DNA from: Planoprotostelium fungivorum | Lineage: Eukaryota; Evosea; Variosea; Cavosteliida; Cavosteliaceae | Assembly: GCA_003024175.1 (NCBI GenBank) | Contig: MDYQ01000157.1 | Coordinates: 1 to 64,000 of the forward strand | Length of the DNA stretch: 64,000 bases | Reading direction: 5' to 3' | Part shown: piece after piece, positions 16,279 through 44,337 of the stretch | Numbering within the stretch: position 1 is the first letter of the stretch | Layout: each line of letters starts with the position of its first letter | Translations under genes and position numbers: made by a program | Notes under the pieces: model-generated | What the model saw: only the letters and a program-made list of their open reading frames with translations | Database searches by the model: none | What the model was told of the DNA's origin: nothing

Positions 16279-19200
16279 TTATGGCTTCATGTACCAAGCA
16301 ACAGCGGGGTTGTTGATGACAAAGAAGACGATGATGGCTCCAATGATCAGCAGCCACAAGAGGAGAAGTCCTCCCAGGATACCACCTACGATGGCTCCCA
16401 CGTTGGTCTTCTTCGATGTACCGACGGTGCCTCTGCCTGCGAGCGATCCTGAACCACCGACGTCTGCGGCGATGGAAGGAGAGGCCTGACCGTCCACAGA
16501 TGCGGCGACTGAGGCATCTGAGGGTACTGCTCCTTGGACTTGGCAGGTGATGTTGTCGTCGCTGATGATGACCACGTTTCCACACTCTTGGCCACCCACA
16601 GTGATGTGGATGAGAGAAGGATTGTTACCAAAGTTGCTGCCGTGGATGGAGACAGTGGTGTATCCGTTGGGATCCAGGGAAGAGATGGTCACAGAGTCCA
16701 CGGAAGGTGGCAGATAAGCCGCTGCGGTGTCGTTGGCAAACTTTTGTCCACCGACGATGACAGAGACATCCTTGCCCTTTCCTGAAAGAGAGCGTCAGTC
16801 TCTTCCTCTCATTTCATTCGCAACTCACCAGTACCAGGGGTGACTGAACAAGAGAGGTAAGTGTCGGGGATGATGACCTGGATGTTCGTACAGGGTTGTC
16901 CGTTGACAGTGACGTTGAGGAGAGAGCCATCACCAAGGTTGGTACCGTTGATGTAGGCAATACCTCCTGCCGTGGGTACGGGTGTCACAGATGAGATGTC
17001 TGGGGGATAGTACGAGAAGTTTCCAGGGGCATTCTGATTGGCTACACCCAACATGAGGGGAAGCTCTGTATACGGTCAATTACATCTCAAGCTTGTCCTC
17101 ACCTTTACCAACACCTCTGCCGACGACACAGTAGATGTGATGATCTGCTTCGCTGATGACGATGTCTGTGCAATGGCTGGCCCATTGTCTCTTTCTCAGT
17201 CCACTGAGAGCGCTGAGTGGGTTGAATCCAACTCCGAGGACGCTGGACACTCTTCCAAAGTTGTCTCCGATGATCTGCAAGACTCCTCCCGAGGTGGGAA
17301 CCAAGGTCGTCATGGTGATGACGGGTGCCTTGTAGCTGTACAGATAAGTGACGATCTGTCCTCCGATCGAGATCTCCAGGGTCAGATTGGCTCCTGTACC
17401 GGGGGGGATGTTGAAGGTGATGCTTCCATCAGATGAAGTGATCACAGTGAGAGGAACACCAGCCAGAGTGGCCACGATGGCTGATTTGCTCAGTCCAAAG
17501 TTGGCACCCGAGATGGTGATGTTTCCTCCTTCTGTGGCTGCATTGGGTACCACACTGATGGTCGGTGCGGTGTACGAGTAGCCGAAACTCTTCGTGTAAT
17601 TTCCGACGGAGACAGAGGCGGTCAAGTCCTTTCCAATGCCAGGAGCTGCGGTACAGGTGGCGGATGTTCCATCAGCAGAAGCTTGTACGTTGAAGCAAGG
17701 AACGTTGTTGAATGCCACAACCATTCCGGAGCTCAAGTTGGTACCATTGATGGTGACGATGCCTCCCGCTGGAGGTACGTTGGATACACTTGTGATCTAT
17801 TGCGAGTCAATTTCATTCGAATGGATAGGAATTTTACCTTTGGGAAATCATAATCGAAGGTGGTTGTTACCGTGGCACCCAGGATGGAGACTGTGACAGG
17901 CACACTCGAGAGGGGTGTACCCAATTCAGGTGCGGTGACTTGTACCACGAGAGAGGAGGCAGAGGAAGAGAGGACAGAGCATGTCACTCCATCGCAGACC
18001 TTTCCTCCGATCGCTACCGTGGGAACAGTTCCGTTACCTCCCAAGAAGTTTCCGGTAATGTTCAAGAGTCCACCCTTGAGGGGGACGACCGTTGTAGATG
18101 AGATGGTGGGGGGCGAGTAGACCAGGGGCACGCTGACGGATGAAATTCCGTTGACAGACACAGAGATGGTAGCGGGGGCAGTTGTCATGGCCGGTGGAAG
18201 AGTCAGGCTGATGGTACCTTGGCTGAGGCTATCGATCTTGACGGGGTTTCCGTTGACAGTGACACGGATGAGAGAGGCATCCGAGCCTAGGTAGTTTCCT
18301 GTGAGGGTGATGACACCTCCAGCGAGACCGACAGGGCTGATGGCTGTGATCGTGGGTGGCAGGTAATTGATGGGAGCGTAAGTGCTCTGTGCGGCACTTC
18401 CACTTCCAATAGATACCTGTGAATGTCATGATCACCATCCACGATCGACTCTCTTCTCACCTTGATGACATCAGAAGGTCCAGAGGATGAGATGGCTGAG
18501 GGAGGAATGTAACACTGGATCGTGTTGTTTCCGATCAGTGTTACCTCCAAGCACGAGATGTGAGCGGCCGTCAGTGTGACCTTGATGTTGCTGACATCAC
18601 TGCCAAACTGATCTCCCATGATGGTAACAAGTCCACCTGTCACAAAATGAACAGAAGACAGAAAGATGAACCTACCAGAAGCGGGAAGAGAGGAAGTGTT
18701 GTAGACGGTGGGCGGCAGATATCCGTAGGTGAAAGCTGTGGTCTGTCCGTTGACCGTGACTGTTCCTGGAAGGTTCTGACCGGTTCCAGCGGGTGCGTTG
18801 ACTGTGATACCACCGGCGACGAGAGCGACACCTGTGGCATCGACACCATTGAGCGTCACACGGATCACACTCTGGTCATTTCCAAAGTTTGAGCCGAGGA
18901 CGTACAATGTGTCTCCGTTGGTATACAATACATTGGTAGAGACCACGATGGGTGCAGTGTAGACCAAGTCGAGGGTGACGTTGGACGAGGTGGACAGCTG
19001 CTGTACGGTGACGGATGTGTTCACACCGGTACCGGCTGGAGCTGGGAAGGCGATCGAGCCGTCTGCTTGCAGAGTGAGGTTGCTGCCAGTGTAGATGATG
19101 CCGCTGACGTTGACCACGAGATCAGAGGTGTTCGTTCCCAGGTTAGATCCCGCCAAGGTGACGAGACCACCTGCGGTAGAGACAGCGGAGACACTGTTGA

Positions 19201-22200
19201 TGGAGATCGCTCCGTAGACATACGTGAAGCCGATGGTCTGATTGCCGACAGTGACGTTTCCGCTCTGTAGGCCAGATCCAGCGGGAACAGAGAAGGTGAT
19301 GTTGTTGCCCAGGGGTCCCACTTGTGCTGTAGTGTTCTGTCCGTTGATGGTGACTGTCACTGGGACTCCATCACCTCCCAAATTTGAACCGTACAGTGTC
19401 ACTTGTCCTCCTGATACGGGAGGATTGGCCACTGAGGCCAGTGTGGGAGCAGCGTACGAGGTGACGTACGTTACGTTCTGTCCGTTGACTGACACGGTGA
19501 CGGTGACGTTGGATGATGAGCCGGCCAAAGAGTTGAAGGTGATGCTTCCGTCGTTGATCAAGGTAGCGGGCACTTGTTGTCCGTTGACATACACTTGTAC
19601 CTGTGAGCTGTTCGTTCCAAAGGAGCTACCGCTGATGGTTGCGACGCCTCCAGCTGTGGGGAGAGCAGAGATCTGCTGCACAGTAGGTGCGGCGTAGTCG
19701 ACCGAGGTGGCAATGGTACTGCCTCTGACTGTGACGGCCAGAGTGTGGTTGAGACCCGTACCCGATGGCAGAGTGAAGGTGATCTGCGAGTCGTTGACAG
19801 AGACCACGTTCAGCACTTGTCCATCCAGTGTGATCGTCACGCCTGCGAAGCTGCTGCCGAAAGAAGATCCACTGATGGTCATGTCTCCTCCTGTGGTCTT
19901 CAGAGCGGATGTGATCTGTACCACTGGGGTGGCGAACTGCAGGCTGTATGCGGATGATGTCTGTCCGGAGATCGTCACGGTGACTGTGGCATTGGCTGAA
20001 GTGATGGGAGAGATGGAAGCCACGATGACAGTGTCGTTGACACTCACGACCGTTGCGTTCTGTCCGTTCACTTGGATCATCACGTTCCCGTTGGCTGTGA
20101 GAGAGTTAATAGATGAAAGGAGGAAGAATGACTGACCTGAAGAGAAGTTGTTTCCGTAGAGGATGACAGTGGTACTGGATGCAGTGATGGGATCAGCACC
20201 AGTGACTACAGGTGGCATGTAGGACACATTGAAGTGGAAGGTCTGTCCGTTGACATTGATCGTGTAGTCCTTGTTGGCTCCACTGCCTGCGTTGATGTTG
20301 AACGTGGCGCTGGTGTCGTTGACTGAGATGGCGTTCGTTGTAGTTGAGCCATCAGAGATGGTGACCACAGAGGCATCGCTACCAAAGTTGCTACCGGTGA
20401 TGGTCACAGTCTGTCCCGTTGTAGATACCACCGGTGCCGATGTGACGGTAGGTGGAACGTAAGAGAAGACAGAGGTTGTGGAAGAGACTGCGTTTCCGTT
20501 GACGTCGGACAACTGCAAGGTGAAGCCGTTGTTCAGACCAGTTCCTGCGGGTGCAGTGAAGGTGAGGACGCTGTGTGCGACAGTGACCGTGGCCGTGATA
20601 GGCACACCGTTGACGATGACCGTGACAGTGGTGCCCAGGGGACCGAAGTTGTTTCCGTTGACCGTCACTTGCGATCCAGCCGTGGGAGACAAGGTCACGT
20701 TGTTGACGACCGGTGGCAGGTAAGTGTAGGTGGACGTCGTGGCTTGATCTCCACTGATGAGTTGTACATCGAGAGGGTTGATTCCTTCGGGTACGAGGGC
20801 GGTGACGTAAGAGTAGTTGTAAGACACTACGGGGCAGGCCACTCCTCCTACGACCACGAAGGGCTGGCTCGTTGCAGTTGCCAAGTTCGATCCTCGGATG
20901 ACCACGAGACCACCTGAGGTGGAAGCAGATGACACACTGGTGATGAGAGGGGCCTCGTAACTGAAGGTGGATGTCACAGACACTCCTCCCAACGTGTATG
21001 TGAAGGGCACTGACGATCCAACACCCGATGTGACCTATCCGTGTCATTCATCTCATTCATCTTCTATTTCTCACATTGAAGGTCATCGACACGTTGTCTC
21101 CTGATACGGGAGTGAAGGTCATGTTACCGATCGTGATGGTTCCGAGAGAACCATCAGCGGCATACAGACGATCACCGTAGATGGTCAATAGTCCTCCCTT
21201 GGTAGACACGACGTTGGCGTCGGTAAGCTGAGGTCCGTTGAGAGAGAAGAGTAGGCTGACTGACTGTCCGTTCACTGTGACAGTGACCTGTTCCGTGTTA
21301 GATGATGTCGGTTAAGATAATCTTACCGTGATCGTCTGGTTTCCTAAGGCAGGAGGGTTGCAGGCGATCAGGTTGTGAGGTGTTGAGAGAGTGACGTTAG
21401 TGGCAGGAACGTTGTCGAATGACACTGTGATCAACGACTCGTTGTTACCAAAAGATCTTCCACTGATGTAGGCAGTGGTACCGTCGCTCGATACCTTTTC
21501 ATTCTCAGTCTTTGTTCTTATTGTGTGACTCACCTGAACGCTGAAGACGATGGGAGGGATGTAGCTGAAGTTCCAGGCGTTGGAAGCTTGATTCAGTGCC
21601 ACCAATGTACCTACAGAGTGTTCAGTGAAAGAGAAGAAGAAATGTTTCTGTCTGACCTGGAATGTTCACTCCTGAACCAGCAGGCACTCGGACGATGGCG
21701 TAGCTATCTGAGAGACTGACTAGCTGCAGAGAGCCAATCTGGTCTAAAGAGATGAGCAGAGTAGCCGCTGACGGTCCGAAGCCACTCCCCGTGATGTTGA
21801 CGAATCCTCCGGCAGTAGTTACACTCTCCACGCTGCTGACCGTGGGAGCTGCGTAGCTGTACAGTGTTGTGACTGTCTGACTTCCCACAGAGAGAGTCAA
21901 GTTGAGATCCTTTCCTGTGCCTGCAGGTGCTCTGAACAGGATGCTTCCATCACTTGTGTTCATGATGGAGGCAAGAGGAACCTGAGGGGATGATCCGATC
22001 GTGATGAAGATCTGAGTGGGATCGGTTCCCAAGTTGGCGCCAGAGATGGTGAGAAGATCTCCCAGGGTAGAGTTGCTTCCTGTCACGTTGTAGATGATGG
22101 GCGACAGGTAAGAGAAGGTCGAGCTGACGTTCTGACCTCCGGCTGAGAAGGTGACAGTGTGGTTGACACCTGTTCCACTGGGTACGTTGATGCCGACTTG

Positions 22201-25200
22201 TGTGTCCGTTCGGCTGATCAGACCACCGTACAACTTTCCGTCGATGTAGACACTGAAGGGTCCAGTGGATCCAAAGTTGAGTCCAGTGAAGTTGATGGTT
22301 GCACCTGAGGTGCTGACGGTGGGTGGTGCCGATGTAATGATGGGAGCTGCGTAAGATGCAGTGACAGTGACCTGTCTGTTTCCAACCTGGATGGTAGTGG
22401 GAATGTTGAAACCTGTACCGGCAGGGAAGGAGAGAGTGATGAAAGACTGGTTGACTGCTGACACTGTGAGGGCTTGTCCACCGAAGACGGCGACGATCTG
22501 AGAGGTCTGAGCACCCAAGTTGGCTCCGTAGAGGGTGGCGTAGCTCCATCCAGATGTGGGGATGATGATGGACACATTATTGATAGTGGGTGCGGCGTAA
22601 GAGAGCATGGTGGTGGCGTTGTTGGAAGCGCCAGCGACCGTGACAGTGAGAGGGATGTTGGATCCCACACCAGCGGGGATAGACAAGGACAGAGTGGTGA
22701 GGTCGAGTGAGACAGATAAGACGCTGACGGTAGATCCAGCCAGATAAGCGTTGACCAGTCCAGCTCCAAAGTTGTTTCCGTTCACCGTCACTGAGTCACC
22801 CGTTGTGGACACGTTGTAGATGACGTTAGAGATGACAGGGCCTGGGAAGGTGTATGTGGAAGAAGTGGTCTGACCTCCCACAGAAAGAACGATGGGCTGC
22901 TTTCCAGTGTTGGCTGCGACTGTGAAGGACAACTGAGCGTGAGGGCTGTTGAGTACCAGCTGAGTGGCCGTGGTAGATCCGACAGTCACGTTGATGGCGT
23001 TGACGTTGGCTCCAAAGTTGAGACCGTACAGAGTCATCCATCCACCGGCGGCTGATGGGCCAGAGACAGAGAGGATGACGGGTGGTCTGTAGGAGATGTT
23101 GAAGCTGTTGGATGTCTGTCCGTCGACTGTGACTACCAGGGGAACACCAATTCCATATCCGGGTGGTACAAAGACGTTGAGCTGCTTGTCTGCAACAGAG
23201 TAGGTGACCTTGCTGCACAGCACGTTGCCGATAGAGACGCTGAGGAGTCCAACGTCTTGACCGAATCCGACACCAAAGACGGAGATGAAGCCTCCTTCTG
23301 TGGGTGGCTGACCCGTCACGCTCAGCACTGTGGGTCCAAAGTATCCCACTGTGAAGGTGTTGTTGACCAATCCATCTACGTCGATCAGAAGGATGTCATT
23401 GGCTCCTGTTCCCTTGGGCGCATTGAAGCCGATCAGGTTCTGGGGGGACAGGACGCTGATGTTGGTGACTGGAATACCCGCGATGCTGATGCTGATCTTG
23501 CTGGCGTCCGTTCCAAAGTTGATACCTGAGGCGATGACGTAGCTACCGGTGGTAGAGATCTTTCCAGTGACGTTGAGAACCGCAGGGAAGTTGTAGACGA
23601 AGGGTATGGTAGTGCTCTGTCCGTCTACAAGGAGGTAGATAACCTTTCTTCCAGTTCCGGCGGGAATGGTCAGTTGTAGAGATGTGTCGTCGGATGAGAT
23701 GTTGAAAGGCACAACTTGACTGTTGAGAGTGACAGAGATGACAGATGCAACTCTTCCAAAGTTGGAACCTGACAGAATGGACAGACCTCCAGCAGTGGGT
23801 GTGGAGATGACTGATGCAATCTGAGGTGCCTGGTAGGAGACAGTGGTGTTGACAGACTGTCCACGAACGTTGAGAGAGATGACACGGTTGACACCAGTGC
23901 CGGCTGGGATGCTGACGGTGACTGACGTGTGGTTCGAGCTGACGATCGTCAAGGCTGTGGCAGCAGAAGAAGAGCCAAAGAGGGTGGCCGTGACGAAGGA
24001 AGGGTTGGGCCCAAAGTTGGATCCGATGATGTTGATGACATCACCCGTTGTGGACACAGGTGATACAAGACCGGTGATGTTGGGAGCCACGTATGTGAAA
24101 GTGAAGTAGCCAAGGTAGCCGTCTACGTTGAGGATAAGGGGCAGGTTGATGCCAGCGCCCTCGGGCACGATGAAGTCGATGCGAGTGTAGTTGTAGACGG
24201 TCACGATGTTCTGCGCTGAGACTCCGTTGATAGTGATGGTCACCACAGAGGATGTAGTTCCCAAGTTGAGACCTGTCAGAGTTGCTTGTCCTCCCACTGT
24301 GGGTAGAAGCTGAGTCACAGAGGTGATGGTAGGCAGTCCGTACGAGAATAGAGCTGTTGTTGTCTGTCCTCCCACTGTCATCACGATGCTGATGTTGCTG
24401 CCCACTCCTGGTCCGTATGCCACTGACACTCCTGTGTCGCTCTGCGTCACTGCCACTTGGCTGCTCTGCGTGCCGCCCACTGTCACTGTGATGTAGCTGC
24501 TGTTGCTGCCAAAGTTTGTGCCGCTCAGCGTCAGCACGCCTCCTGCTGTGCTGTTGTCGCCGCCGACCACGTTGATGACAGGTGGCAGGTAGCTGAAGAC
24601 AGCGTTGGCAGATTGGCCACCGAGAGTGACGAGGAGAGAGATGTTCTGTCCGACGCCAGGTGGAGCGTTGAAGGTGATGTTGTTCTGTTGTACACTGTAG
24701 TTGTAGATCTGGACACCTCCGGCGATGATGGAAGCAGGAGTGTTGATGGGTCCAAACTGATCACCGACGATCGTGAGGGCACCTCCTGAGGTAGGTACAA
24801 TTCCCTTGACAATGTAGATGACGGGTGGTTTGTACGACAGAGTCGACACTGCTGTCTGTCCGCCCACAGTGACGGAGAGCGAGAGAGCTGCTCCCACACC
24901 AGCAGGTACAGTGACTGTGATGGTGCTGTGGTTGGAAAAGGTGATCGTGCTGTTCTTTCCGTTGATCTGTACGCTCAGGGCAGACTGCAGAGGACCAAAG
25001 TTGTCTCCAAAGAGGTCGACGGTGTCGCCAGAGGTGGAGACGTTGTAGACGGGAGACACAGTGGGTGCGGTGTAACTGTATGTGGTAGAGATGGTAGTTG
25101 ATCCCACGACAAAAGTGAGGGGTAAGTTCGTTCCGTAGCCTGCAGGGACTGCAAACTGGAATTCGAACTGCGGCACAGTGACGTTGATGACAGTGCAGGC

Positions 25201-28200
25201 CACACCGTTGAGCTGAACAGTGATGTTGGACGTGATGTTACCGAGGCTGTAGCCGCTGACCGTGGCGACTGATCCTCTTGTCGATCCACTGCTCACCACC
25301 TGAGTGATGATGGGTGTACCAAAGTTGACCAGCTGCGTGTTGCTCTGTCCGTCGACGACGATGGTGACGTTGGCCCGAGAAGTGACCATGGGACTAACCA
25401 CGATCTGCAGAGCGGTGTTGTTCTGAATCAGAGAGATGTTGTTGACGGTGTAGTTGGCCACAGAGAGGGAGATGAGCGACAAGTTGGAGCCAAAGTTGAT
25501 GCCCAACAGAGTCACGAGGGATGCGTTGTTCTGTATCTGAGCTCCTGCCGTGAAGATGAGAGGAACGCCGTAGCTGTAGGTCAGGCTGTTCGACTGTTGG
25601 TTTCCGGCAGTGAAGGACAGAGTGTGGTTGGCTCCAGTTCCTGCTGGTACCATGAAGCGGACGGCATGGTGATCGTTGACCACGGCGAGTGCTGGGTAAA
25701 CCACACCGTCCAAGGTGAAAGACAAGCTGGACAGAGAAGAGGCTGCACCCAGGTTGTCTCCGTAGACCGTGACAGAACCTCCAGAAGTCAGAGTAGAACC
25801 GTTGACGACGTCGATGGTTGGTGTCTGGTACGAGAGCAGCTGATTGGTCGTCTGTCCTCCAACAGTGATGGTCACGATGTCGTTGACTCCGACTCCAGGG
25901 GGTGCGATGAAGGTCAGGGACGTGTCAGATGTCACGTAGGTGATGTTCGTGGCTGATAAACCTGCCACAGCGATGGAGATGGCGTTGAGAGTCGATCCCA
26001 AGTTGGCACCCAGAACAGAGACGAGACCTCCTGAGGTGGGGGGTAGGCCTGTCAGGCTGCTGACGGTAGGTGGCTGGTAAGAGAAGCTGTTGTAGATGGC
26101 GATCTGTCCGTCGACGTTGACCGTGATCGTGTTGTTGCTTCCCGTTCCGGCAGGGACAGTCAGTTGTAAGACATCATGACTGCTGCTGACGTTGGCGACC
26201 GATAGCTGCACAGGCTGAGAGAAGAAGGGTCCACTGAGAGTGACGGTGATGGCAGATGTGTTGCCACCAAAGTTGAGACCCGTCAAATTGGTCATGGCAC
26301 CTGATGTGGGTACCAGATAGGTGGACGATATCGTGGGGGCCTTGTATGCGTAAGCAGTGGTGACACTCTGTCCTCCAACAGTGATGGTGATGGGAACAGA
26401 TGCTCCAGTGCCCGTGGGAACGGTCATAGTGAGAACTGTGTCGCTGTTGAAGATGGCCAGAGATGTGATGGGTGAGATACCACTCTTGCCTACAGCCACA
26501 CTGACAGCGGAGAGATTGTTGCCAAAGTTGTTACCGTAGATGACGATGTTTCCGCCGAGGGTAGAGACGGGGGCAGAGACGTTGGTCACTGTTGGTGGGG
26601 CATAGGAGAAGAGACTGTTGGCGAAGATGTTGGGGCTACCAACGATCAACTGGACGGTCTTGTTCGTTCCCACTCCAGGAGGAATCTGGAAGGAGAGAGC
26701 AGTGTCGTTGTAGATGAAGGCGACCTTGCTGCAGACCACTGAGTCGAGAGTGATGGTCAGCAGACCTGTGTCTCTTCCAAAGTTGATTCCGTTGATGTAC
26801 GCTTGACCTCCGCTGGTGGGTAGAAGCTGAGTCACAGAGGTGATGGTAGGCAGTCCGTACGAGAACAGAGCTGTTGTCGTCTGTCCTCCCACTGTCATCA
26901 CGATGCTGATGTTGCTGCCCACTCCTGGTCCGTATGCCACTGACACTCCTGTGTCGCTCTGCGTCACTGTCACTTGGCTGCTCTGCGTGCCGCCCACTGC
27001 GACTGTGATGTAGCTGCTGTTGCTGCCAAAGTTTGTGCCGCTCAGCGTCAGCACACCTCCTGCTGTGCTGTTGTCGCCACCGACCACGTTGATGACAGGT
27101 GGCAGATAGCTGAAGACAGTGCTGGCAGACTGACCGTTGACGGACACGGTGAGAGGAAGGTTGGCACCTACGCCAGCTGGAACAGTGACGTTGAGAAGGG
27201 TGTGGGGGTTAACTAAGTTGAAGCTGACGACAGTTCCGTTCAGCTTGACCGTGATCGACGAGGCTACTGCGCCAAAGTTGGCGCCAGAGAGTTGCAGAAG
27301 ACCTCCAGATGTTCCCAGGGGTGTAGTGCTGTTGACGACAGGAGGAAGGTAAGAGAAGGGGAAGGGCGAGCTCTGTTGTCCTCCGACTGTCAAGATGATG
27401 GGTACATTTGTTCCACTTCCTGCTGGAATCTGCACGCTCAGCTGTGTCTGGCTGACATAGGTGAAGAGCAGGGGGGTAGAACCCGCAACCAGCGAGATGG
27501 AGTTGGCAGCGGGTCCAAAGTTTGTACCAGTGAGGGTCAAGTTACCTCCGCTAGTGGGCAGGCTTCCTGTGGAAGCAGTGATGAGAGGTGCACTATAGCT
27601 GTAGTTGAAGGTGGCTGTAACACCATCTACGTTGATGATGAGGGGCAAGTTGGCTCCCACACCAGCAGGGATCTGCACAGAGATAGTAGTTCTGTTGGTC
27701 ACCATGGTCACTGATCCGCAGTCGACACCGTTGAGAGTGACATTGATGCGTTGAGCCTGAGTGCCAAAGTTGCCACCAGAGATGGTGGATGTTGATCCGG
27801 CTGTCGATCCAGAAGAGCTAACCAAGCTGACGAATGGAATACCGAAAGCGATGGTCGTCATGGTAGTCTGTCCATCTACAACGAGAGTGACGTTGTTACG
27901 CAGACCCGTAGAGACGGATGTGTTGAAGGCGATGACGCTGTTGGGGCTGGTGATCTTGACGTCAGTGCTGACGATGCCGTTGATGGACACTGTGACGACA
28001 GCCAAGTTGTTTCCAAAGTTGGAACCGGACAGGATGACCAGACCTCCCTGATCCAAAGCCTGACCTCCGGCCGTAGCGATGATGGGTGCAGCGTAGCCAA
28101 AGTTGATGGTGTTCGACGTCAGACCGTCGACTGTGATGGACAGGACGTGGTTGAGACCCGTACCAGGTGGTAGTAAGACGCTCAGCTGAGTGTGAGGCGA

Positions 28201-31200: not shown

Positions 31201-34200
31201 TCCGTTGAAGGTGGCGGTGATGTTGAGCAGAGAAGAGCCAAAGTTGGTACCAGTCAGAATGACGCTGCTTCCAGATGTGCTGGGAAGAGGGCTGGCATTC
31301 GTGATGGTAGGTGCGGCGTAAGCGAATGTTCCAGCATTGCTGGTCTGACCAGAGACCGTGACAATGATGTTGTTTGTAGCTCCAACACCGGCTGGGACTG
31401 TGATGTCGACGTGATCGTCGATGACATAGTTGACCAGGGCGCTCTGTCCGTTGACGAGGACGCTAACGGCACTAGTGACTTGTCCAAAGTTGCTACCGGA
31501 CACAGTGACACTGCCTCCAGCCGTCGATGGCGTGCCGCTCACTGATGTGATCGAAGGCGCTGCATAGCTGTAGCTGCCTGTGACGTTCTGGTTGCCCACT
31601 GTCAGAAGCAGAGGCAAGTTGGCTCCTGATCCTGGCGGTGCTACGAACTGGATCTGTCCGTGGGGAATGTTGATCTGAATACCTTGTGCTGCGTATCCTC
31701 CCACAGTCACACCAATTTGACCGACGATGTTGCCCAGGTTCGTACCGTTGAGTGTGGTCAGAGTGCCATCTGTTGCGAACGAACCAGAAAGGGCAGAGAT
31801 GGTGGGTCTGTTGTACGAGAAGAGAGCAGAGGCTGACTGACCGTTGACACTGACAGTCAAAAGGTGACCAGATCCGATACCACTGGGGATCTGTACTTGA
31901 ATGGCTGTCTGGGCGGCAGTCATGATGACAGGCAGCGAAGTGTGATCTAGAGATACTGTGATCACAGCTGAGGTGTTACCAAAGTTGTCTCCGTTGATCG
32001 CCACTTGTCCTCCTGCTGTGTCTGTGTTGCTAGGAGTGGCAAGGACGGGAGCATCGTAGGTGTAGACGTACATTCCAATGGCGTTGACCACCTGCACGAT
32101 CATTGGCAAGTTGATACCTGTGCCAGCTGGGGCTGTAAAGCTGAAGCGAGTATCGTTTGATAGAATGGTATAGTTGGATCCAGCCACTCCGTTGATCAGA
32201 ACCTTGATAGCCGAGGCACTGCTTCCGAAATATTGTCCGTTGACGATGATTACGCCTCCTCTTGTTGACGTGCTGCCGTTCAGATACGTCACAAACGGCT
32301 GGTTCATCGTGTAGTTGAACATCGTTGCCTGTCCTCCCACCACCAGCGTCACGTTGGCAAAAGCGCCTCCAGTGTAAGCAGCTGTCAGCTGAGTGTCGTT
32401 GGTCAGCACTGCAGCTGATGTGAGAGTGCCGTTGATGTACAGAGCGATGCTGCTGTTCTGTCTGCCAAAGTTGACTCCATTGAGTGTCAGCACTCCGGCG
32501 CCTCCAGTGATGTTGGATGTCTGGATTCCAAAGATTGAGGGAGGAGGGTATACATATGAGAAGCTTGTTGATGTCTGACCATCCACTGTGACGGAGAGAG
32601 TGTGGGTTCCCACGCCAGGAGGGGCTGAGAAGGTAAGCTGACGGTCGGCGATGGAGATGGCCGAGGTTGGGATGGCTGCACCATCGAAGCTGACGTTGGC
32701 CAAAGATGAGATGGTACCAAAGTTGTTACCCAGAAGTGTAGCCACTCCTCCGGCTGTCGTCGCTGATGGTGTGACCTGGGCAACTGAAGGAGAAGCGTAG
32801 CTGAAGGTCGTGCTGACGTTCTGTCCGTCTACACTGACCAGCAGAGGCTTGTTAGCGCCAGTACCAGCAGGGAAGGGGAAGATGGCCTGGGTGTGATTGA
32901 CCGATGAGACAGATGGAATCTGAGATCCAGCCAGATAGACCGAGAGCACGGACAGATCGTTACCCAAGTTGGTTCCAGTCAGGGTCAAGATGCCTCCAGC
33001 TGTGCTGCCGTTGGTTGATGTGGTCAGTCCGCTGATGGTGGGTGCAGCGTAGGCAAAGTTGGCCACAGAGGTGAGCTGACCGTTGACGTTCACTTGCAAG
33101 TCGTTCTTCAATCCTGTGCCGGCCTGAGCGGTGAACTGGATGGTAGAGAATGCTGTGGACACAGAGACGCCGCTCTGCTGTACTCCGTTGATCGTCACTT
33201 GGATAACTGAGCTGTCGTTTCCAAAGTTCGTTCCGCTGATCGTCACTGCTCCTCCTGTCGTCGGGCAGCCGCTGTATGACTGTACGGTAGGTGCAGCGTA
33301 TGTGAGTGTGTATGTGTTTGACACTTGTCCGTTCACTGTCACTACCACTGCTTGACTGCCTGTGCCTGCTGGCAGGCGCACGCTCACTCCTGTGTGTGCT
33401 GTGGCTACTGTCACGTTGCTTGCGCTGACGCCTCCCACGCTGACAGAGATGACACTCTTGTCAGTTCCGTAGTTGCTTCCAGTGATGGTCACAAGTCCGC
33501 CAGATGTGGACAAGTCGCCAGTCAGAGCGAGGATTGTGGGGGCAGCGTAGGAGAGATAGCTGGTAGCTGACTGTCCGTTGACCGTGACCGTGTAAGGAAT
33601 GTTGACTCCTGTTCCAGCAGGTGCTGTGATGTTGGCCAGTGTGTGAGCAGTAATGATGCTCATCGCAGCAGACGAACCACCGACTGTGGCTGAGAGAAGA
33701 CTGCCATCACCAAGGCTGCTTCCGGCTACATTGACAAATCCACCGGATGTCGAGACGTTGTAGATGGGGAAGATGGTGGGGGGCAGGTAGTTGTACATGA
33801 ACGTTGTAGACTGACCATCTACCGTCAGAGCGATCGCCTGATTGGCTCCGCTTCCAGCTGGTACGTTGTAGTTGACCGATCCATCGACTGTGATACCAGC
33901 CAGAGCAGCAGAGGTGGCTCCTTGTTTGGTAAAGCTGATCTTTGTGCTGTCGACACCAAAGTTGGTTCCATTGATGGTGATGACTCCTCCGGCTGTGCTC
34001 GTGCTAGTGCTGCTAGTCACTGTGGGGGCACCGTAGGAGAGAGAGAAGGTGTTACTGTTCTGTCCTCCCACAGTCAAGATCAGTGGCTTGTTCAGTCCAG
34101 TGCCAGATCCAACTGTGATAGTGGCTGACGTCTGGCTGACGCTCTGTACAGTTGCTGTCTTGCCGTTGTAGACGGCCGTCATAGTAGCTGCGGTTGCGCC

Positions 34201-37200
34201 AAAGTTGGTACCAGTCACAGTGACAGTGCTGCCTGTTGTGCTGGGAAGTGAGCCGACAGAGTTGATGATGGGCAGAGCATAAGCCAGGTTGCTGGATGCT
34301 GACTGACCATTGACGACAACAGTGATGTTGTGTGTGCCTCCCACTCCTTGTCCGATCTGGAAGGTGAGAGTCGTGTAGTTGGATGTGATGGCCACGTTGG
34401 ACTGAGCGGCTCCGTCGACCAACACTGTGATGACTGCAGCGTTGCTTCCAAAGTTTGTTCCGTTGACCGAAACCACAGCTCCAGACGTAGATGGCTGAGA
34501 AACGCTGTTGATCGATGGAGAGGAGTAGCTGAAGCTGAAAGGGGCCGAAGACTGCCCGTTGACTGTCACAGTTACATCGCTTCTTCCAGTGCCAGGTGGC
34601 AGCTTGACGCTGAGAGCGGTGTGGCTGGATGTGACTGTGACGTTGCTGGCGCTCGATCCTCCGACAGAGACAGAGACCAGATGGTAATCTGACCCAAAGT
34701 TGTTTCCGCTGATCGTCACGATGCCTCCGGATGTAGATAGATCTCCAGAGAGGGCAGAAATGGAAGGAGCAGCGTAAGAGAGAGAGCTGGATGCAGATTG
34801 TCCGTTGACTGTCACAACGACTGGGATGTTGACTCCTGTTCCAGCAGGTGCAGCAATGTTGGCCTGTGTGTGAGCAGTGGCGATGCTGATCGTTGCTGCC
34901 ATTCCCCCGATCGTTGCTGACAGTGATGTTCCGTTGCCCAGACTGCTGCCGCTCACAGCGACTACTCCTCCGGCTGTCGACACGTTTGTGATGGCAGAGA
35001 CAGAGGGCGCAGAGTAAGAGTACAGGAATGATGTCGTCTGTCCATCTACTACCATCGTTACAGTCTGATTGGCTCCACTGCCGACAGGTACGTTGTACTG
35101 GACTGTTCCATCGACTGTGATACCAGAGGATGCAAGGGTAGAGGCACCTTGCGTGTTGAAGCTGATCTTGCTGTAGTCGGTACCAAAGTTGATGCCGTTG
35201 ACTGTGATCTGTCCTCCAGCAGTAGTCGTGCTACCAGTGTAACCAGTGACAATAGGGGCAGCGTAGGACAGAGAAAAGGTGTTGCTAGTCTGTCCACCAA
35301 CCGTAAAGATCAAAGGTCTGTTCAGTCCAGTACCGGATCCAAGTGTGACAGTTGCAGATGTCTGACTGACGCTCTGTACAGTTGCTGTCTTGCCGTTGTA
35401 CACCACAGAGATAGTTGCTGTAGATGCGCCCAAGTTGGACCCAGTCACTGTCACTGTGCTGCCTGTTGTGTTGGGAAGCAAGCTGACCGTGCTGATCACA
35501 GGCACAGTGTAAGCCAGATTAGAGGCTGTAGCTTGGCCATCGACGACTACAGTGAGGTTGTGTGTGACTCCCACTCCTTGTCCAATTTGGAAGGTGAGGA
35601 TGCTGTGATTCGATAATATGGATACTGCCGTCTGGGTGACTCCATCGACGGAGACAGAGATGACTGCAGCACTGTTGCCAAAGTTCGTTCCGTTCACTGT
35701 CACTGTTGCTCCTCCTGTCGATGGCTGACTGACTGCTGTTATTGTAGGTGCTGCGTAGCTGAAGCTGTAGGCTGTCGACGTCTGACCGTTCACTGTCACT
35801 GTCATGCTCTTTCTGCCTGTGCCTGCTGGCAGCTGTACGCTCAGTCCTGTGTGTGCTGTGGTCACAGCGACGTTGCTGCCGCTGCTCGATCCCACTGACA
35901 CTGTGATCACGCTGGCGTCTGTGCCATAGTTGCTGCCACTGATCGTGACAACTCCTCCTGATGTCGAGAAGTCGCCAGTGACAGCAGAGATGGTAGGCAG
36001 GGCATAAGACAACAAGCCAGAGGATGTCTGTCCATTCACTGTGATCGTCACTGGAATGTTGGCTCCAGTTCCAGCAGGTGCTGTGATGTTGGCCTGGGTG
36101 TGAGGAGTCACGATAACGATGGGAGCTGCAGTGCCCTTGACTATGGCGGAGAGTGCGGTTCCGTTGCCCAGACTGCTACCACTGACAGTGACAGCGCCAC
36201 CAGATGTGGGGACATTGGTAATGGCTGCGAAGGTAGGAGGCAGATAGCTGTACAGAAAGCTTGTTGTCTGTCCATCGACAACCAATGTCACATTTTGACC
36301 TGTGCCGCTTCCGGCAGGCACGTTGTATCTGACTGCTCCGTCCACTGTGATACCGGCTGCTGCGTTGGACGTCACTCCTAGTGTTGTAAAGCTGATCTTT
36401 GTGTTGTCCACGCCAAAGTTCGTTCCGTTCACTGTGATCTGCCCTCCTGCTGTTGTTGTGCTGCCACTGTAGCTCGTCACGGTAGGTGCTGCGTACGACA
36501 GAGAGTAGCTGTTGCTGTTCTGTCCAGCCACAGTCACTGTCAGAGGATGACTGACTCCACTGCCTGCTCCGATCGCAACTGTCACTGCTGTCTGCGACAC
36601 GCTCTGCACTGCCACTGCCTGTCCGTTGTATGTGGCTGAGATGTTGGACACAGATGTACCAAAGTTGGATCCTGACAGAGTGACCGTGCTGCCTACTGTG
36701 TTGGGCAGAGTGCTCGTCGAAGTGATCACAGGTGCGGCATAAGCGAACGTTCCTGCGTTGCTCTTCTGACCAGACACTGTCACCACGATGTTATTTGTGG
36801 CTCCTACTCCAGCGGGCACGTTGATGTTGACTGAGCTGTCGGTCACTGATGTCACAACTGCACTCTGTCCGTTGACAGTGGCAGAGACAGATGCTGTCAC
36901 TTGTCCAAAGTTGCTTCCAGCCACTGTCACGCTGCCTCCAGCTGTTGATGGCGTGCCACTTACTGATGTGATCGAAGGCGCTGCATAGCTGTAGCTGCCT
37001 GTCACGTTCTGGTTGCCCACTGTCAGAAGCAGAGGTAAGTTGGCTCCTGATCCTGGCGGCGCCACAAACTGGATCTGGCTGTGCGGGATGTTGATGGCCA
37101 CGCTCTGTGCTGCGTATCCTCCCACAGTCACACTGACTTGACCAGTGATGTTGCCCAGGTTTGTACCGTTGAGTGTGGTCAGAGTGCCGACGGTAGAGAA

Positions 37201-40200
37201 AGAGCCAGACAAGGCGGAGATGGTAGGTGCGTTGTACGAGAAGCTGGTGGTGGCTGACTGTCCGCTGACCACGACATTGAGGAGGTGGTTGGATCCTACA
37301 CCACTGGGAATTTGTACCTGTAGTGATGTCTGACCAGACAAGATGGTCACTGGGAGTGGTGTGCCCTCCATAGATGCGGAGATGGCACTGACGTTGGTTC
37401 CAAAGTTGTCACCGTTGATCGTCACTTGTCCTCCCGCCGTTCCCGTGTTGCCAGGGGGTGAACTGATCACAGGTGCATCGTAGGTGTAGACGTACGTTCC
37501 AATGGCGTTGACCACTTGCACGATCATGGGTAGGTTCACACCAGTTCCAGCCGGGGCTGTGAAGCTGAATTGGGTGTTGTTCGTCAGGATAGCATAGTCG
37601 GTTCCCGCGATTCCATTGATCGTGACAGATAGAGCAGACGAGTTGGTTCCAAAGTATTGTCCGTTGACGGTAACAATCCCTCCTCTTGTTGATGTGCTTC
37701 CAGAGATGGAGGTGACTGTGGGCTGGTATAGAGAGTAGCTGAAGTAGACAGGCTGTCCTCCCACAACCAAAGTGATATTGGCAACAGGCCCACCAAGGTA
37801 GGGTGCTGTGAGAGCAGAGTCGTTGGTCAACACAGAGGTGGATGTGAGAGTGCCGTTGATGTACAGAGCGATGCTGCTGTTCTGTCTGCCAAAGTTAACT
37901 CCGCTGATCGTAATCGTTCCAGCGCCTCCAGTCTTATTGTTGGTCTGAACGTTGTAGATAATCGGTGCAGGGAAGACGTAAGGGAAGCTCGTTGATGTCT
38001 GACCATCCACTGTGACTGAAAGAGTGTGCGTTCCCACGCCAGGGGGGGCTGAGAAGGTGAGCAGACGGTCAGCTGTAGTGACGGCTGTGGCTGCGATGGG
38101 AGAACCGTCGAAGTTGACACTGACCAGAGATGCAGTGTTACCAAAGTTTGTACCCAAAATTGTGGACACTCCTCCGGCTGTAGTGGCTGATGGCGTGGCT
38201 TGGCTGACTGTGGGCGCAGCGTAGCTAAAGGTAGTGCTGGCGTTCTGTCCGTCCACACTCAGCAGCAGCACCTTGTTCGTTCCTGTGCCTGCTGGAATGC
38301 TGAACACGGCTGTCGTCTGGTTCACTGACGTCACTGGCGTGATCTGACTGCCGGCCAGGTACACGCTTGTCTTGCTCAGCACGTTGCCAAAGTTGTTGCC
38401 GTTCAGTGTCATCACTCCTCCAGCTGTGCTTCCGCTTGTCGATGTGCTAAAGCTACTGATCGTAGGTGCTGCATAGCCAAAGCTGGTGATAGGGGATGAC
38501 TGTCCATCTACTGTGACTTGCAGGCTGTTCGACAGACCAGTGCCCGACTGAGCTGTAAAGCTGATGCCTGTGTTGGCTGTAGACACAGAGATGCCGCTCT
38601 GCTGTACTCCGTTGNGCTGGAATGCTGAACACGGCTGTCGTCTGGTTCACTGACGTCACTGGCGTGATCTGACTGCCGGCCAGGTACACGCTTGTCTTGC
38701 TCAGCACGTTGCCAAAGTTGTTGCCGTTCAGTGTCATCACTCCTCCAGCTGTGCTTCCGCTTGTCGATGTGCTAAAGCTACTGATCGTAGGTGCTGCATA
38801 GCCAAAAGTGACGGTGGAAGATGTCTGACCATCTACTGTGACTTGCAGGCTGTTCGACAGACCAGTGCCTGACTGAGCTGTAAAGCTGATGCCTGTGTTG
38901 GCTGTAGACACAGAGATGCCGCTCTGTTGTACTCCGTTGATCGTCACGCTGACCTTGCTAGCACTGCTGCCAAAGTTTGTTCCGCTGATCGTCACTGCTC
39001 CTCCTGTTGTCGGGCAGCCACTGTATGACTGTACGGTGGGCGCAGCGTATGTGAGTGTGTATGTGTTTGACACTTGTCCGTTCACTGTCACTACCACTGC
39101 CTGACTGCCTGTGCCTGCTGGCAGGCGCACGCTCACTCCTGTGTGTGCACTGGCTACTGTCACGTTGCTTGCGCTGACGCCTCCCACACTGACAGAGATG
39201 ACGCTCTTGTCGGTTCCGTAGTTGCTTCCAGTGATGGTCACAAGTCCGCCAGATGTGGACAAGTCGCCGGTCACTGTGGAAACGATGGGTGCGGCGTAGG
39301 AAAGAGTCGAAGTAGCGGATTGACCATTCACAGTGATGATCACCGGGATGTTTGTTCCAGTTCCCACAGGTACAGTGATGTTCGCTTGGGTGTGAGCTTG
39401 AGTGATGATGATCGGTGCGGCTACTCCATTGATCGTGGCAGAGAGCGAGGTACCGTTACCGAGGTTACTGCCGCTGATCGTGTATACACTTCCAGTGGTG
39501 GGGATGCTGGTAAGAGTGGACAAGGAAGGGCGGGGATAGCTGAAGAGGAAGGTGGTTGGCTGTCCATTCACAGTCATGGTAACAGTCTGGTTGGCTCCGC
39601 TGCCTGCGGGCACGTTGTAGTTGACCAATCCATCGACTGTGATGCCAGAGGATGCTTGAGTGGTGATACCCTGAAGAGTGAAGCTGATCTTCGTGTTGTC
39701 TGTTCCAAAGTTTGTACCGTTGACCGTAATCTGTCCTCCTGCTGTTGTTGGGCTCCCCGTGAAACCAACGACGGTGGGAGCGGCGTAAGAGAGGGGATAG
39801 TTGTTGCTAATCTGTCCTCCTACGGTCAAGATGAGGTACAAGTTGAGACCTGTTCCGGAGGGAATAGCGATGGTAGCAGATGTCTGACCGACACTTTGTA
39901 CCGTCACTGAGTTTCCGTTGTACATGGCTGAGATGGTCGAAGTGGATGCTCCAAAATTGGTTCCCGTTACAGTTACTGTTGCGCCTGTAGTGATGGGAAG
40001 TGGGGATACTGAGGTGATGGTAGGTACGGCGTAAGCCAAGTTGGCCTGGACAGATTGACCGTCAATAACCAGAGTGAGGTTGTGTGTGGCTCCCACTCCT
40101 TGTCCGATGCTAAAGCTCATGGCCACAAAGTTGGCCACCACAGCCACGCCTGTCTGTGTGACTCCGTCTACGGAGACAGAGATGACTGCAGCGCTGTTGC

Positions 40201-43200
40201 CAAAGTTCGTTCCGTTCACTGTCACTGTTGCTCCTCCTGTCGCTGGCTGACTGACTGCTGTTATCGTAGGTGCTGCATAGCTGAAGCTGTAGGCTGTAGA
40301 CGTCTGACCGTTCACTGTCACTGTCATGCTCTTTCTGCCTGTGCCTGCTGGCAGCTGTACGCTCAGTCCTGTGTGTGCTGTCGTCACAGCGATGTTGCTG
40401 CCGCTGCTCGATCCCACTGACACTGTGATCACGCTGGCGTCTGTGCCATAGTTGCTTCCACTGATCGTCACTACTCCTCCTGATGTCGAGAAGTCGCCGG
40501 AAACGGCAGAGATGGTAGGCAGGGCATAAGACAACAAGCCAGAGGACGTCTGTCCATTCACTGTAATGACCACTGCTACATTCGTTCCAGTACCGACAGG
40601 TGCGGTAAGACTGGCCTGAGTGTGAGGCGTCGAAATGCTGATGGCAGCTGCACTTCCCTTGACTGTTGCTGACAGTGCAGTTCCGTTACCCAGACTGCTG
40701 CCACTCACAGTGACAGCGCCACCAGATGTAGGGACGTTGGTAATGGCTGTGAAGGTAGGAGGCAGGTAGCTGTACGGGAAGGTGGTCGTCTGTCCATTGA
40801 TGTTCACGAGTACATTCTGGCTGGCTCCTCCAGTTCCAGCCGGCACGTTGTAGTTGACCAATCCATCGACCGTGATGCCAGAGGATGCTTGAGTGGTGAT
40901 ACCCTGAAGAGTAAAGCTGATCTTCGTGTTGTCCACGCCAAAGTTCGTTCCGTTCACTGTGATCTGCCCTCCTGCCGTTGTTGTGCTGCCGCTGTAGCTC
41001 GTCACTGTGGGCGCTGCGTACGACAGAGAGTAGCTGTTGCTGTTCTGTCCGGCCACAGTCACTGTCAGGGGAAGGTTGGCGCCCGTTCCGGCGGGAATGG
41101 TTACTACGGCAGATGTCTGAGTGACACTCTGTACCGTCACGGGGCTTCCATTGTACGTGGCTGTGATCGACCCAAGCTGAGCACCCAAGTTGGTACCCGT
41201 GATCGTCACACTGCCTCCAACTGTGGCGGGGAGAGTTGATACCGAGGTGATGGCAGGTGCGGCGTAGGTGAAGGGTGTTGTCACGGACTGACCGGCCACA
41301 GTGACGTTGAGAGTTTGAGCTCCCACACCAGCGGGGATCTTGACGTTGATGAGGGTGTTTGGAGTCAGAAGAGAAGTGACCAGGGCGACACCGTTCAGTG
41401 TCACGGACAGCCCACTTCCAGATCCAAAGTTGGTACCAGTGATGTTCACCGAACCACCAGCGGTAGGTGTCTGTCCGTTGGGAGGCGACAGAGATGAGAT
41501 CGTGGGAGGCTGGTAAGAGAACGAGGTAGTCCCCGTCTGGCCCAAGTACGTCACGATGAGGGCTAAGCCAGCTCCGACACCGGCTGGGACGTTGACCGTC
41601 ATCCAGTTGGCCGTCACGGTCCCAGTGGTGAGGGAAGCACCGTTGAGGGTGACTGTGGCGCCCGAGCCAAAGTAGTTACCGGTGATGTTGAGGATGCCCC
41701 CCGAGGTGGAGATGCCCGGTGAGACCTGAGTGATCTGGGGGGGAGGGACGTAAGTGAAGGTGGCGGCGTTGGTACTGTTGATGCCGTTGATGTTGACCAC
41801 AAGGGGCACGGTGTAAGGTGCAGAGCCGAAGGGAACGGTGAAGTTGATGGCAGTGGGGCTAGTGAAGGTGGGTGTGTAAGCCGTTCCACCGACGTAGACG
41901 GTAGCCGAGGTGATCGTACCGAAGACTCCACTGAGAGCCACAGGGTAAGTGGGGTAGCCACTGACCGAGTTGACTGAGGGTACGGCCGTGTAAGTGTAAA
42001 CGGTCGACTGAGTGCTCGAAGAGTTGACGATGACCGTGTAGGTACCCACAGCCGACAGCGTGGGCTTCTTGGTGGTCAGATGGGTCTGAGATGCATCTAC
42101 CGATCCGAGGGCGAGAGTGCCGGCCCAGTTGACCGTACAGTTGTAAGTGGCAGTACAGGGTCCAAAGTTGAGACCAGTGAGAACGACAGAGCCACCCGTG
42201 AGAGTCTGATCTGAGATGGAGTAGATGGAGGGGTTGGGGTACGCCACGGTGAGGGGAGTTCCGTAGACTCCATCGATGACGAAACGGATGTTGTTGACAC
42301 CCATGCCTGGGAAGTTGGTGACGGAGATGTTGGTGAAGGGGCTGATGATGGCGTAGGTTCCCGAGGCGAAGGTGGCACCGTTGAGGTACATAACGATGGA
42401 AGAGGCCTGGTTACCCCAACTGGTACCGCTGAAGTAGGCAGTGCCTCCTGCGGTGTTGACGATGTAGGAGGTCACCGTGACGGGGGCGAAGTAGACGCTG
42501 ATGATCTGAGAGGCAGTTCCCGCTAAAAAGTATTGTACCGTGAAGTTGGCCTGAGGGGGTGCGATGAAAGTGACGGCCGAACTGGGAGTGGAGACGTTAT
42601 AGGTGGCGTTGTAGACTCCAGTCTGGTTCGTGACACGGACGATCTGGCCGAAAGAGTTGTTGAAACCCAAATTGCTACCCAACAGAATCATGGGGGTTCC
42701 ATCAACTCTTTGGGAGGGACCTCCAGTCAATGCGTTACCACTGGTGGGAGACATGTTATTCACGGCCAGCAAGCCATAACTCAGCGTGGAAGTGGTCAAC
42801 ACGTTGGACTGTCAGATGATCAGAGGCCATTGGAACGAAAGAATTAGATTAAGTGGATGAAGGAAAGGGGAAACTCACCAAGAAGAGATAAGGAGTCATC
42901 TGAGTTTGGTTGAACGTCCAAGGACCGTCTCTGTACAGAATGAGAGATGTTTCAGATGATGAAGGAGAGACTGTGAAAAGAGAAAAACGATGGATACGCA
43001 CCGCTGGGCCATGGTGTGTCGATAGTTGTAAAACTGATTGGGAGTGGCAGCGTAGGACTTGAAAGTACCACCACCGGCCTGCCAAGTGACACGTCCAGAC
43101 CACGAGTTGGTGGTGTTGGGTGCCAAGGCGGGGGGACCGATGTAAGAGAAGGCCACATCGTCGACAGAGAAGGTCAGCGGAATGGTGGTGGTGGTCGACA

Positions 43201-44337
43201 TCACGTAACCCGTCATGACGATACTGAAGTTGCTCGAACTGGCTGTGTACGTAGAGAACCCGTTGGGGTCACCATTGGTATTGCTTCCGAAATAGGATGT
43301 GGCGATACCGGTCGCTACATGGAGTCAGAGCTGGTTTCTACAAAAACAAGAGGTGATCGACGCATCATGAGAAAAGGACCCAGATGATAGTTTGATAGGA
43401 TTTACCTTTCAGGCTGATGGTCGGATCACTACTGGTGGGGACTAGCTTAGCGGGGTCCATGGCTGTATTCGCGGTATCGAAGTAGGGGTTCGTTAAAACC
43501 TGTCATTCAAGTCAATGAGGACCAGATGGGGGGGTCTTACGAAGTAACGTTGACCCAGGATGGCGTAAAGTCCGGCCAAGCCATCGACGGTGACGATCAA
43601 AGGAAAGTCAAAACCGACATTAGGAGGCACAATGCAGGAGAATGAGGTGTGATTGGTGACGATGGCCAGGCCTGAGCAGGGGACACCACCGACAGTCGCA
43701 CTGAGAAGCGAAACGTTCGCTCCAAAGTTCGTTCCAGTGAATGTCATTGGGCCACCGGAAGTACCCACATTCTGGTAGAAGTTGGAGCTCAATGTGGGGG
43801 GAAGGTATCGGTATAAATAACTGGCTGAGCCTTTGGTGCAGGTAAGAACGAAGTTGTGATCTGAGCAATCGGTCAATCTCAAATGCAACATTAACCATTG
43901 AAATGATCAAGATTGCACAACCACGAGATAGATTGAATGAAGACGCATATTCTCGGTGAGAGAAGGACTTACTGATTCCGGTTCCTGCAAATATTGTAAC
44001 ATTAACCTGGGTAGTGCTTATATATTTGACTGCTGTGCTTACAGAGTCTAAACTTGATGTACATGTGCTATCGAAGTTTGTTCCTGTGACGACGATAACT
44101 CTGAATGATACGTTTAGTGCTTTTTCTTATTTCCTTCAAACTTCTCACCCTCCGCTTGTAGGGGAAGCTCCGACGGCAGAGATCGTTGTTGACTGGGATA
44201 TGGCCCCGACCAACAAGCTGAGAAGAAGAGGGAAGATGAAGCTATAATCCCGTTAGCAATGCAAAGATTCTCTCAGGTATACGATTCTATCCGAAAGACA
44301 ACAAAGAAATGAACTATACATACATGAGCTTAGCCAT
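16279..44337 (-). CDS. Giant cell-surface IPT/TIG-repeat protein (about 9,000 residues)
   Basis: A huge type I membrane protein, likely an adhesion or recognition fibre. Exon 1 (14 nt from the ATG at 44337) splices across 44242-44323 to give a signal peptide, MAKLIFIFPLLLSLLVGA. Nearly all the rest is tandem IPT/TIG immunoglobulin-like modules of about 80-87 residues, each with a T-x-GG-x-hydrophobic-x-G-x-NFG core, a PAGTG/PPGVG turn and VNGQ/VDGQ followed by YAPPT. On the order of 100 modules fit, dense in N-x-S/T sites. Around 42850-43350 is a non-IPT insert (FSVDDVAFSYIGPPAL; WSGRVTWQAGGG) that may be a GLEYA/PA14-like fold. The protein ends in one TM helix (VGGILGGLLLLWLLIIGAI) and a tail of about 12 residues, NNPAVAWYMKP. 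Introns cluster at the two ends; the central frame runs about 17 kb unbroken. The frame breaks at an N (38615), read as an assembly join. Dictyostelium Tgr adhesion proteins share the module type, not this scale. Confidence 0.87.
24301..24602 (-). repeat. IPT segment nearly identical to 26818-27119 (copy 1)
   Basis: About 302 bp matching 26818-27119 with roughly eight differences seen by eye. It encodes the module pair around VINVVGGDNSTAGGVLTL and LPTITSVTQLLPT. Neighbouring modules on either side do not match, so this is a local recent duplication or gene-conversion tract. Confidence 0.85.
26818..27119 (-). repeat. IPT segment nearly identical to 24301-24602 (copy 2)
   Basis: Second copy, offset 2517 bp (839 codons, so frame-preserving). 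Most differences from copy 1 are silent or conservative (for example TVTV versus AVGG-type changes at single codons). Confidence 0.85.
29700..41230 (-). repeat. Higher-order IPT array: 1.23-kb cassette within a 5.4-kb block
   Basis: Five module types recur in a fixed order, named here by their opening words: A (SGSTTTAGGQ/KISF), B (NVPTSGGAVTV/SSLG), C (GDFSTSGGVVTI/SNYGTD), D (QPSTGGATVTV/SAAVISV) and E (LPNTTGSTVTV). A modules begin near 40.99, 39.75, 36.45, 35.22, 33.99, 31.03 and 29.81 kb; adjacent cassettes are spaced about 1230 bp. Between cassette runs lies an eight-module segment F-M (SGCPTTGG, STSGSTAGG, SATTAGG, NNKTGG, GSTSTRGG, NTGTAGG, GSFSTVGT, SGTPSTAGG) present near 39.0-36.9 and 33.3-31.5 kb. 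Subtracting the suspect 324-bp join, the block period is about 5.4 kb. Confidence 0.82.
38291..38939. repeat. 324-bp direct duplication flanking a single N (contig join)
   Basis: 38291-38614 and 38616-38939 start with the same sequence (GCTGGAATGCTGAACACGGC) and stay alike to TGTACTCCGTTG, with one short cluster of differences near 38480-38500. A lone N at 38615 lies between them and the reading frame differs on its two sides. Best read as two overlapping contig or haplotype ends placed side by side. Confidence 0.8.

Follow-up and report, generated by a model that had tools for sequence, protein, structure and literature searches.

A predicted giant IPT/TIG-repeat surface protein with a GLEYA-like insert near its N terminus in Planoprotostelium fungivorum

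The first 64,000 nucleotides of contig MDYQ01000157.1 of Planoprotostelium fungivorum (hereinafter the window; host assembly of 36.86 Mb in 471 contigs) carry on their minus strand what the sequence supports as one giant gene, coding for an IPT/TIG surface protein with a spliced signal peptide, a single C-terminal transmembrane (TM) helix and a tiny tail. Translation of the window places the start ATG at 44337 and the in-frame stop at 16279, confirming both ends of the approximately 28-kb coding run reported in a preliminary description of this DNA. Two stop-to-stop frames dominate the region, one of 5,674 residues (21622-38646) and the other of 1,452 (38453-42811). Within 21658-38613 the coding frame has no stops as against 220 and 60 in the other two frames, and the chance of 5,652 stop-free codons, given the local composition, is about 10^-89.5. 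The core of the coding run (42808-21657) is essentially free of introns, and elsewhere we inferred splicing by setting exon borders from GT-AG sites and frame continuity (Table 1). At three places (44241; 43405/43314 with 43001/42930; 17837) a hand-picked border replaced that of our first script because it improved the signal peptide, the donor site or the boundary of a module; for the signal-peptide acceptor, the script had preferred 44217. The exons yield 1,725 residues without a stop on the 5′ side of an N at 38615, and 7,338 residues followed by the stop on its 3′ side. After merging a duplicated segment around this N, the protein has about 8,955 residues (894 kDa), close to the roughly 9,000 first estimated; we suspect two 39-nucleotide in-frame introns, picked by eye at about 18675-18637 and 21533-21495, and the length would fall to about 8,930 residues if both are real.

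The N at 38615 is the sole non-ACGT base of the window and coincides with the point where the frame appears to shift. Directly abutting it are two gapless copies of a 324-bp segment, each beginning on the third base of a codon; hence, the frame is continuous once they are merged. An unmerged contig overlap accounts for the apparent shift near 38.6 kb, and both a programmed frameshift and an intron at this position are ruled out, as the overlap flanks the N and the frame is equal on its two sides. About 10 of the 12 differences between the copies are clustered, so that they may derive from two alleles or from two copies of a repeat. A collapse of near-identical repeats could also make the true array longer, such that the module count given below is an estimate rather than a maximum.

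Hydropathy analysis recovers two strong hydrophobic segments, namely the N-terminal signal peptide and the C-terminal helix, the latter being followed by 11 residues; together with the translation, this bears out the termini proposed in the preliminary description. Three further segments are marginal (1.69-1.73), one of which falls in a suspected intron. Two lysines lie just outside the C-terminal helix, and on the inside the only one is the last-but-one residue, which makes glycosylphosphatidylinositol anchoring or another topology possible. That the locus might instead comprise several genes or an assembly artefact draws on the lone N and the overlap in mid-gene and on the sequence-based nature of the single-transcript reading. 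However, no change of frame occurs across the overlap, the open frame runs uninterrupted for 16.96 kb, no strong internal hydrophobic segment that might mark another start or end was found, and the two terminal parts of the gene each have a single copy. We accordingly consider this alternative most improbable.

Table 1. Coordinates of the giant gene and its predicted features in the window
Feature	Position	Strand	Basis or detail
Whole giant gene, ATG to stop	16279..44337	-	exons by frame continuity
Predicted exons, 5′ set	44337-44324, 44241-44149, 44100-43973, 43830-43541, 43499-43406, 43314-43002, 42930-42879, 42808-38616	-	
Predicted exons, 3′ set after the N at 38615	38614-21657, 21610-21327, 21287-21075, 21034-18461, 18416-17838, 17796-17103, 17041-16829, 16781-16279	-	
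Predicted signal peptide MAKLIFIFPLLLSLLVGAISQS, intron-split	44179..44337	-	hydropathy peak 2.36
Spliced pair of N-terminal IPT/TIG modules, residues 21-84 and 87-169	43559..44195	-	own HMM, 26.4 and 72.0 bits; Pfam TIG
Non-IPT insert, residues ~170-345 (GLEYA-like 236-319; DD at 258-259)	42758..43558	-	PF10528
Main IPT/TIG array, ~102 of ~104 distinct modules	16465..42493	-	Pfam, own HMM, AlphaFold model
Modules 7-54 (0-based), block duplications of 5, 17, 19, 22 and 24 modules	29593..41266	-	module comparison
Unmerged contig overlap around the N	38291..38939	-	38939-38616 vs 38614-38291: 324 bp, 96.3% identical, gapless, abutting the N
Predicted transmembrane helix VGAIVGGILGGLLLLWLLIIGAIIVFFVI	16315..16401	-	hydropathy 3.13, maximum of the protein
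11-residue tail NNPAVAWYMKP	16282..16314	-	translation

The bulk of the protein is made up of IPT/TIG modules. A scan with the Pfam profile PF01833 of seven pieces, drawn from the exons other than 1-7, 10, 11 and 15, identified 85 separate stretches at E ≤ 0.01 (13+44+15+9+1+2+1), with the three largest pieces scoring 275.8 to 943.6 bits against a gathering cut-off of 20.9; a later scan covering exons 1-8 in part at a looser cut-off of 5 added two TIG stretches. A hidden Markov model (HMM) trained on the modules of the window itself detects 106 of them above 10 bits at a spacing of about 82 residues, with one extra at 5.8 bits. Two of the 106 are duplicates created by the overlap, leaving about 104 distinct modules, and the modules span 95.8% of the 8,955 residues obtained after merging, with a mean pairwise identity of 33%. 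Thus, the earlier portrayal of the frame as repeated IPT modules holds for nearly all of its length, failing at residues ~170-345, which are not IPT. The modules are predicted to adopt the IPT beta-sandwich fold: AlphaFold, given a three-module alignment of 21 stretches, returned a model with a mean predicted local distance difference test score (pLDDT) of 95.5 and a predicted template-modelling score (pTM) of 0.85. Its best Foldseek match in the PDB is plexin A1 IPT3-6 (E 5.9e-9), with a whole-chain TM-score of 0.32, a low value that would be expected if the angles between modules differ. A profile search of the PDB with the modules likewise retrieved plexin A2 (2.5e-11), followed by plexin A1, SGBP-B and Met. 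The IPT fold is also found in fibrocystin but, unlike the giant, plexins, Met and fibrocystin contain only a small number of modules. Neither a Sema, a kinase nor a G8 domain was found in the giant's scanned pieces.

Serine and threonine make up 27% of the giant, which has 26 cysteines in its 8,955 residues and 215 N-glycosylation sequons as compared to 168.8 ± 10.7 in shuffled sequences; the sequon excess and the cysteine count are as expected for a secreted glycoprotein. Acidic residues are scarce (D 2.2%, E 0.2%), making calcium stiffening of the modules unlikely. A prokaryote origin of the array was considered and rejected: one scan of genome contigs with a four-module query returned 130 pattern stretches with no close relative, and two weak relatives, sharing 31% identity over 122 residues and 46% over 50, respectively.

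Part of the array grew by block duplication (Table 1), whereas modules 55-105 have diverged from one another save for one pair at 98%. Using 86 module pairs with more than 55% identity, two of which are the overlap artefact, we obtained pooled ratios of nonsynonymous to synonymous divergence (dN/dS) of 0.21-0.26 per lag, with dS of 0.73-1.07. In a column-wise test of 33 pairs, no column has a proportion of nonsynonymous differences (pN) above 0.5, and the synonymous proportion (pS) exceeds pN in the 20 fastest columns listed. Because dN/dS of the duplicated modules is near 0.2, the array is a long-standing, functional one that purifying selection has conserved; these ratios and dS values of ~0.7-1.1 rule out a recent hypervariable expansion. 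Separately, 27135-26801 and 24618-24284, modules ten apart, share 95.2% DNA identity across 336 bp, as against a protein identity of about 47% between the modules next to them; this reflects either a patch resembling gene conversion or an error in assembling the repeats.

The non-IPT insert lies two modules from the N terminus. Scanned as a 161-residue piece, it matches the GLEYA profile PF10528 with E 1.3e-4 and 22.6 bits, covering model positions 1-87 of 91. None of nine reversed or shuffled controls matched GLEYA, while two matched other families at 0.0097 and 0.027, from which we conclude that Pfam values near 0.01 carry no meaning. The matched stretch includes one of the five DD pairs of the giant, the calcium-binding pair of GLEYA/PA14 domains being DcisD. 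The lectin motif of these domains, G(M/L)(E/A/N/Q)YA, as given in PMC8621652, was by eye absent from the insert. On balance, we judge it somewhat more probable that the insert is a PA14/GLEYA-type lectin than that it is not.

A related insert occurs in another gene of the same genome. Eight further IPT genes have at least 6, 14, 16, 25, 25, 25, 28 and 28 modules, so that the giant holds roughly four times as many as the largest of these lower-bound counts. A GLEYA search of the genome yielded a single match, below the cut-off, in the IPT gene C124, with the giant, whose domain is intron-split, itself unmatched. When the inserts were scanned individually, that of C124 matched GLEYA at E 1.9e-4 and that of its close paralogue C362 at 0.0075, with no match for a C33 stretch. 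The C124 insert occupies the same place as that of the giant, and the two align with a score of 85 (shuffles 42.8 ± 8.0, one in 1,000 as high). Along C124:51001-67000, the order is IPT, GLEYA-like domain, IPT array, GPS and kinase. Downstream of the array lie a GPS motif (9.5e-11), a stretch hydrophobic by eye and kinase pieces (1.8e-8), and we infer that these exons form one receptor-kinase-like gene with an adhesion-G-protein-coupled-receptor-type cleavage motif. The GPS and kinase pieces of C124 indicate that an ectodomain of this IPT-GLEYA layout serves at the cell surface.

Several observations pull against the lectin assignment. The PF10528 score remains below the Pfam gathering cut-off of 26.2 bits, and in a 460-residue N-terminal piece the match weakens to E 0.002 and 18.8 bits. 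PDB sequence searches with the insert retrieved no PA14 or GLEYA structure, and exon 6 folded alone gave an uninformative pLDDT of 39.9. The alignment of the giant's insert with that of C362 scores 64, a value reached by 12 of 1,000 shuffles, and the GLEYA match of C362 is no better than the two chance control matches. Further, a two-sequence profile of the C124 and C362 inserts fails on the giant's insert (-1.7 bits, equalled by about 10 of 1,000 shuffles).

Other IPT genes differ downstream of their arrays. In C28, C33, C250 and C471, the gene continues into a stretch that by eye looks leucine-rich, although a Pfam scan of C33 did not confirm this; in C33:40001-58000, the IPT array and this stretch are followed by a right-handed beta-helix (3.5e-15). 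A small gene at C39:134001-144000 has two IPT modules, a TM segment and a basic tail. No close second copy of the giant's N-terminal insert region or C-terminal end was found in its own genome.

Taking these features together, we posit, with about an even chance of being right, that the giant is a single-pass surface adhesin of ~0.9 MDa working as a lectin-tipped, long-reach tether. The ~104 beta-sandwich modules would form a rod anchored by the C-terminal helix with next to no cytoplasmic tail, and the GLEYA/PA14-like domain, two modules from the free end, might bind glycans carried by prey, by the substrate or by other cells. Acting as a spacer, the stalk would raise the lectin end clear of the glycocalyx by some tenths of a micrometre. 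Contact would amount to passive tethering, and any signalling would fall to other proteins, for instance the related receptor kinase of the same genome. Sugar binding by the insert, the length of the rod, its expression and its target are all predictions: assuming 3.5-4 nm per 82-residue module, 104 modules would give a rod of ~0.36-0.42 micrometres, and the "micrometre-scale" fibre of the preliminary description was thus overstated. More tentatively, the protein would be a eukaryotic equivalent of the giant adhesins of bacteria, and the same lectin-plus-IPT front end, placed on a ~0.4-micrometre tether and on receptor kinases, might pair a silent grappling line with a signalling receptor.

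The proposed tether has analogues in distant lineages. The bacterial adhesin MpAFP of the RTX type uses a stalk of ~120 Ig-like repeats, each ~45 Å (4.5 nm per 104 residues), to hold a ligand domain ~0.6 micrometres off the cell, as described in PMC4083281. In contrast, the giant is eukaryotic, spliced and TM-anchored, its IPT modules are poor in acidic residues, and no RTX family appears among the Pfam matches in a general scan of its seven pieces. Yeast Flo/Epa adhesins similarly place an N-terminal GLEYA/PA14 lectin domain ahead of a long repeat stalk (PMC8621652), whereas the giant's stalk is IPT, its anchor TM-like and its GLEYA score under the cut-off. By analogy, the giant may work like RTX and Flo adhesins, a likeness of working that does not in itself place it in either family.

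Alternatively, the protein might mediate cell-cell adhesion or allorecognition, its IPT modules binding each other or a partner on sister cells in the manner of dictyostelid Tgr (Tiger) proteins. These share with it a signal peptide, IPT/TIG modules, one TM segment and an amoebozoan surface, and Pfam Ig_TgrO1 matches the array too (for instance at 5.7e-51 across a single 4,000-residue piece); however, the Ig_TgrO1 stretches overlap TIG and may represent the same fold seen twice. The likeness seen is one of layout; the giant differs in its ~104 modules, near-absent tail and GLEYA-like insert, and neither the dN/dS of ~0.2 nor the 20 fastest columns listed, none with pN > pS, point to diversifying recognition, leaving this option unlikely. 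A search for ComC_SSD gave no match, its controls likewise matching nowhere. IPT/TIG proteins as such are common in Amoebozoa, with 55, 76, 110, 42 and 5 in five genomes (PMC4931340), and a literature search, with most subscription journals outside its coverage, turned up no amoebozoan proteins with many IPT modules.

We also give only a low probability to a purely structural role as an elongated glycocalyx or matrix fibre without a specific ligand, for which the Ser/Thr content and the sequon excess would be apt. The parallel here is colossin A of Dictyostelium, another giant repeat protein of an amoebozoan, which is a structural protein of slugs with hundreds of Cna_B repeats (PMC3188802); the seven pieces of the giant gave no Cna_B match, and such a coat leaves the tip insert and its relative in the kinase gene unexplained. 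That relative, a homologous insert in the same place in a gene with GPS and kinase, instead recommends a co-receptor or decoy that shares a ligand with the IPT-GLEYA receptor kinases and presents or withholds it. Yet the giant's insert is just 27% and 25% identical to those of its relatives and its DD pair is missing from both, and we hold this to be very improbable. If the tethering adhesin is the correct reading, it would be a convergent answer, in a free-living amoeba, to the problem of reach that bacteria met with RTX adhesins; it would also offer a testable gene for particle capture by amoebae and indicate that an IPT-lectin front end moves between adhesin and kinase.

As to the host, a 180-residue myosin II exon of its genome scores 256 bits against Dictyostelium-type myosin (the PDB entries with this score are presumably those of Dictyostelium) and ~205 against animal myosins; on this one piece, the host is probably an amoebozoan. 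Myosin exons with equal scores and mirrored order occur at C35:8350-10676 and C112:49496-51822; these are probably either a haplotig or the end of a contig present twice. Within the window, the giant gene is adjoined by a beta-helix/Chlam_PMP repeat protein on the plus strand (5647-6579 and 7515-8006), and the window also carries pieces of an ATP-binding cassette transporter (958-1981, minus strand) and a glucose/sorbosone dehydrogenase (52899-53978, plus strand).
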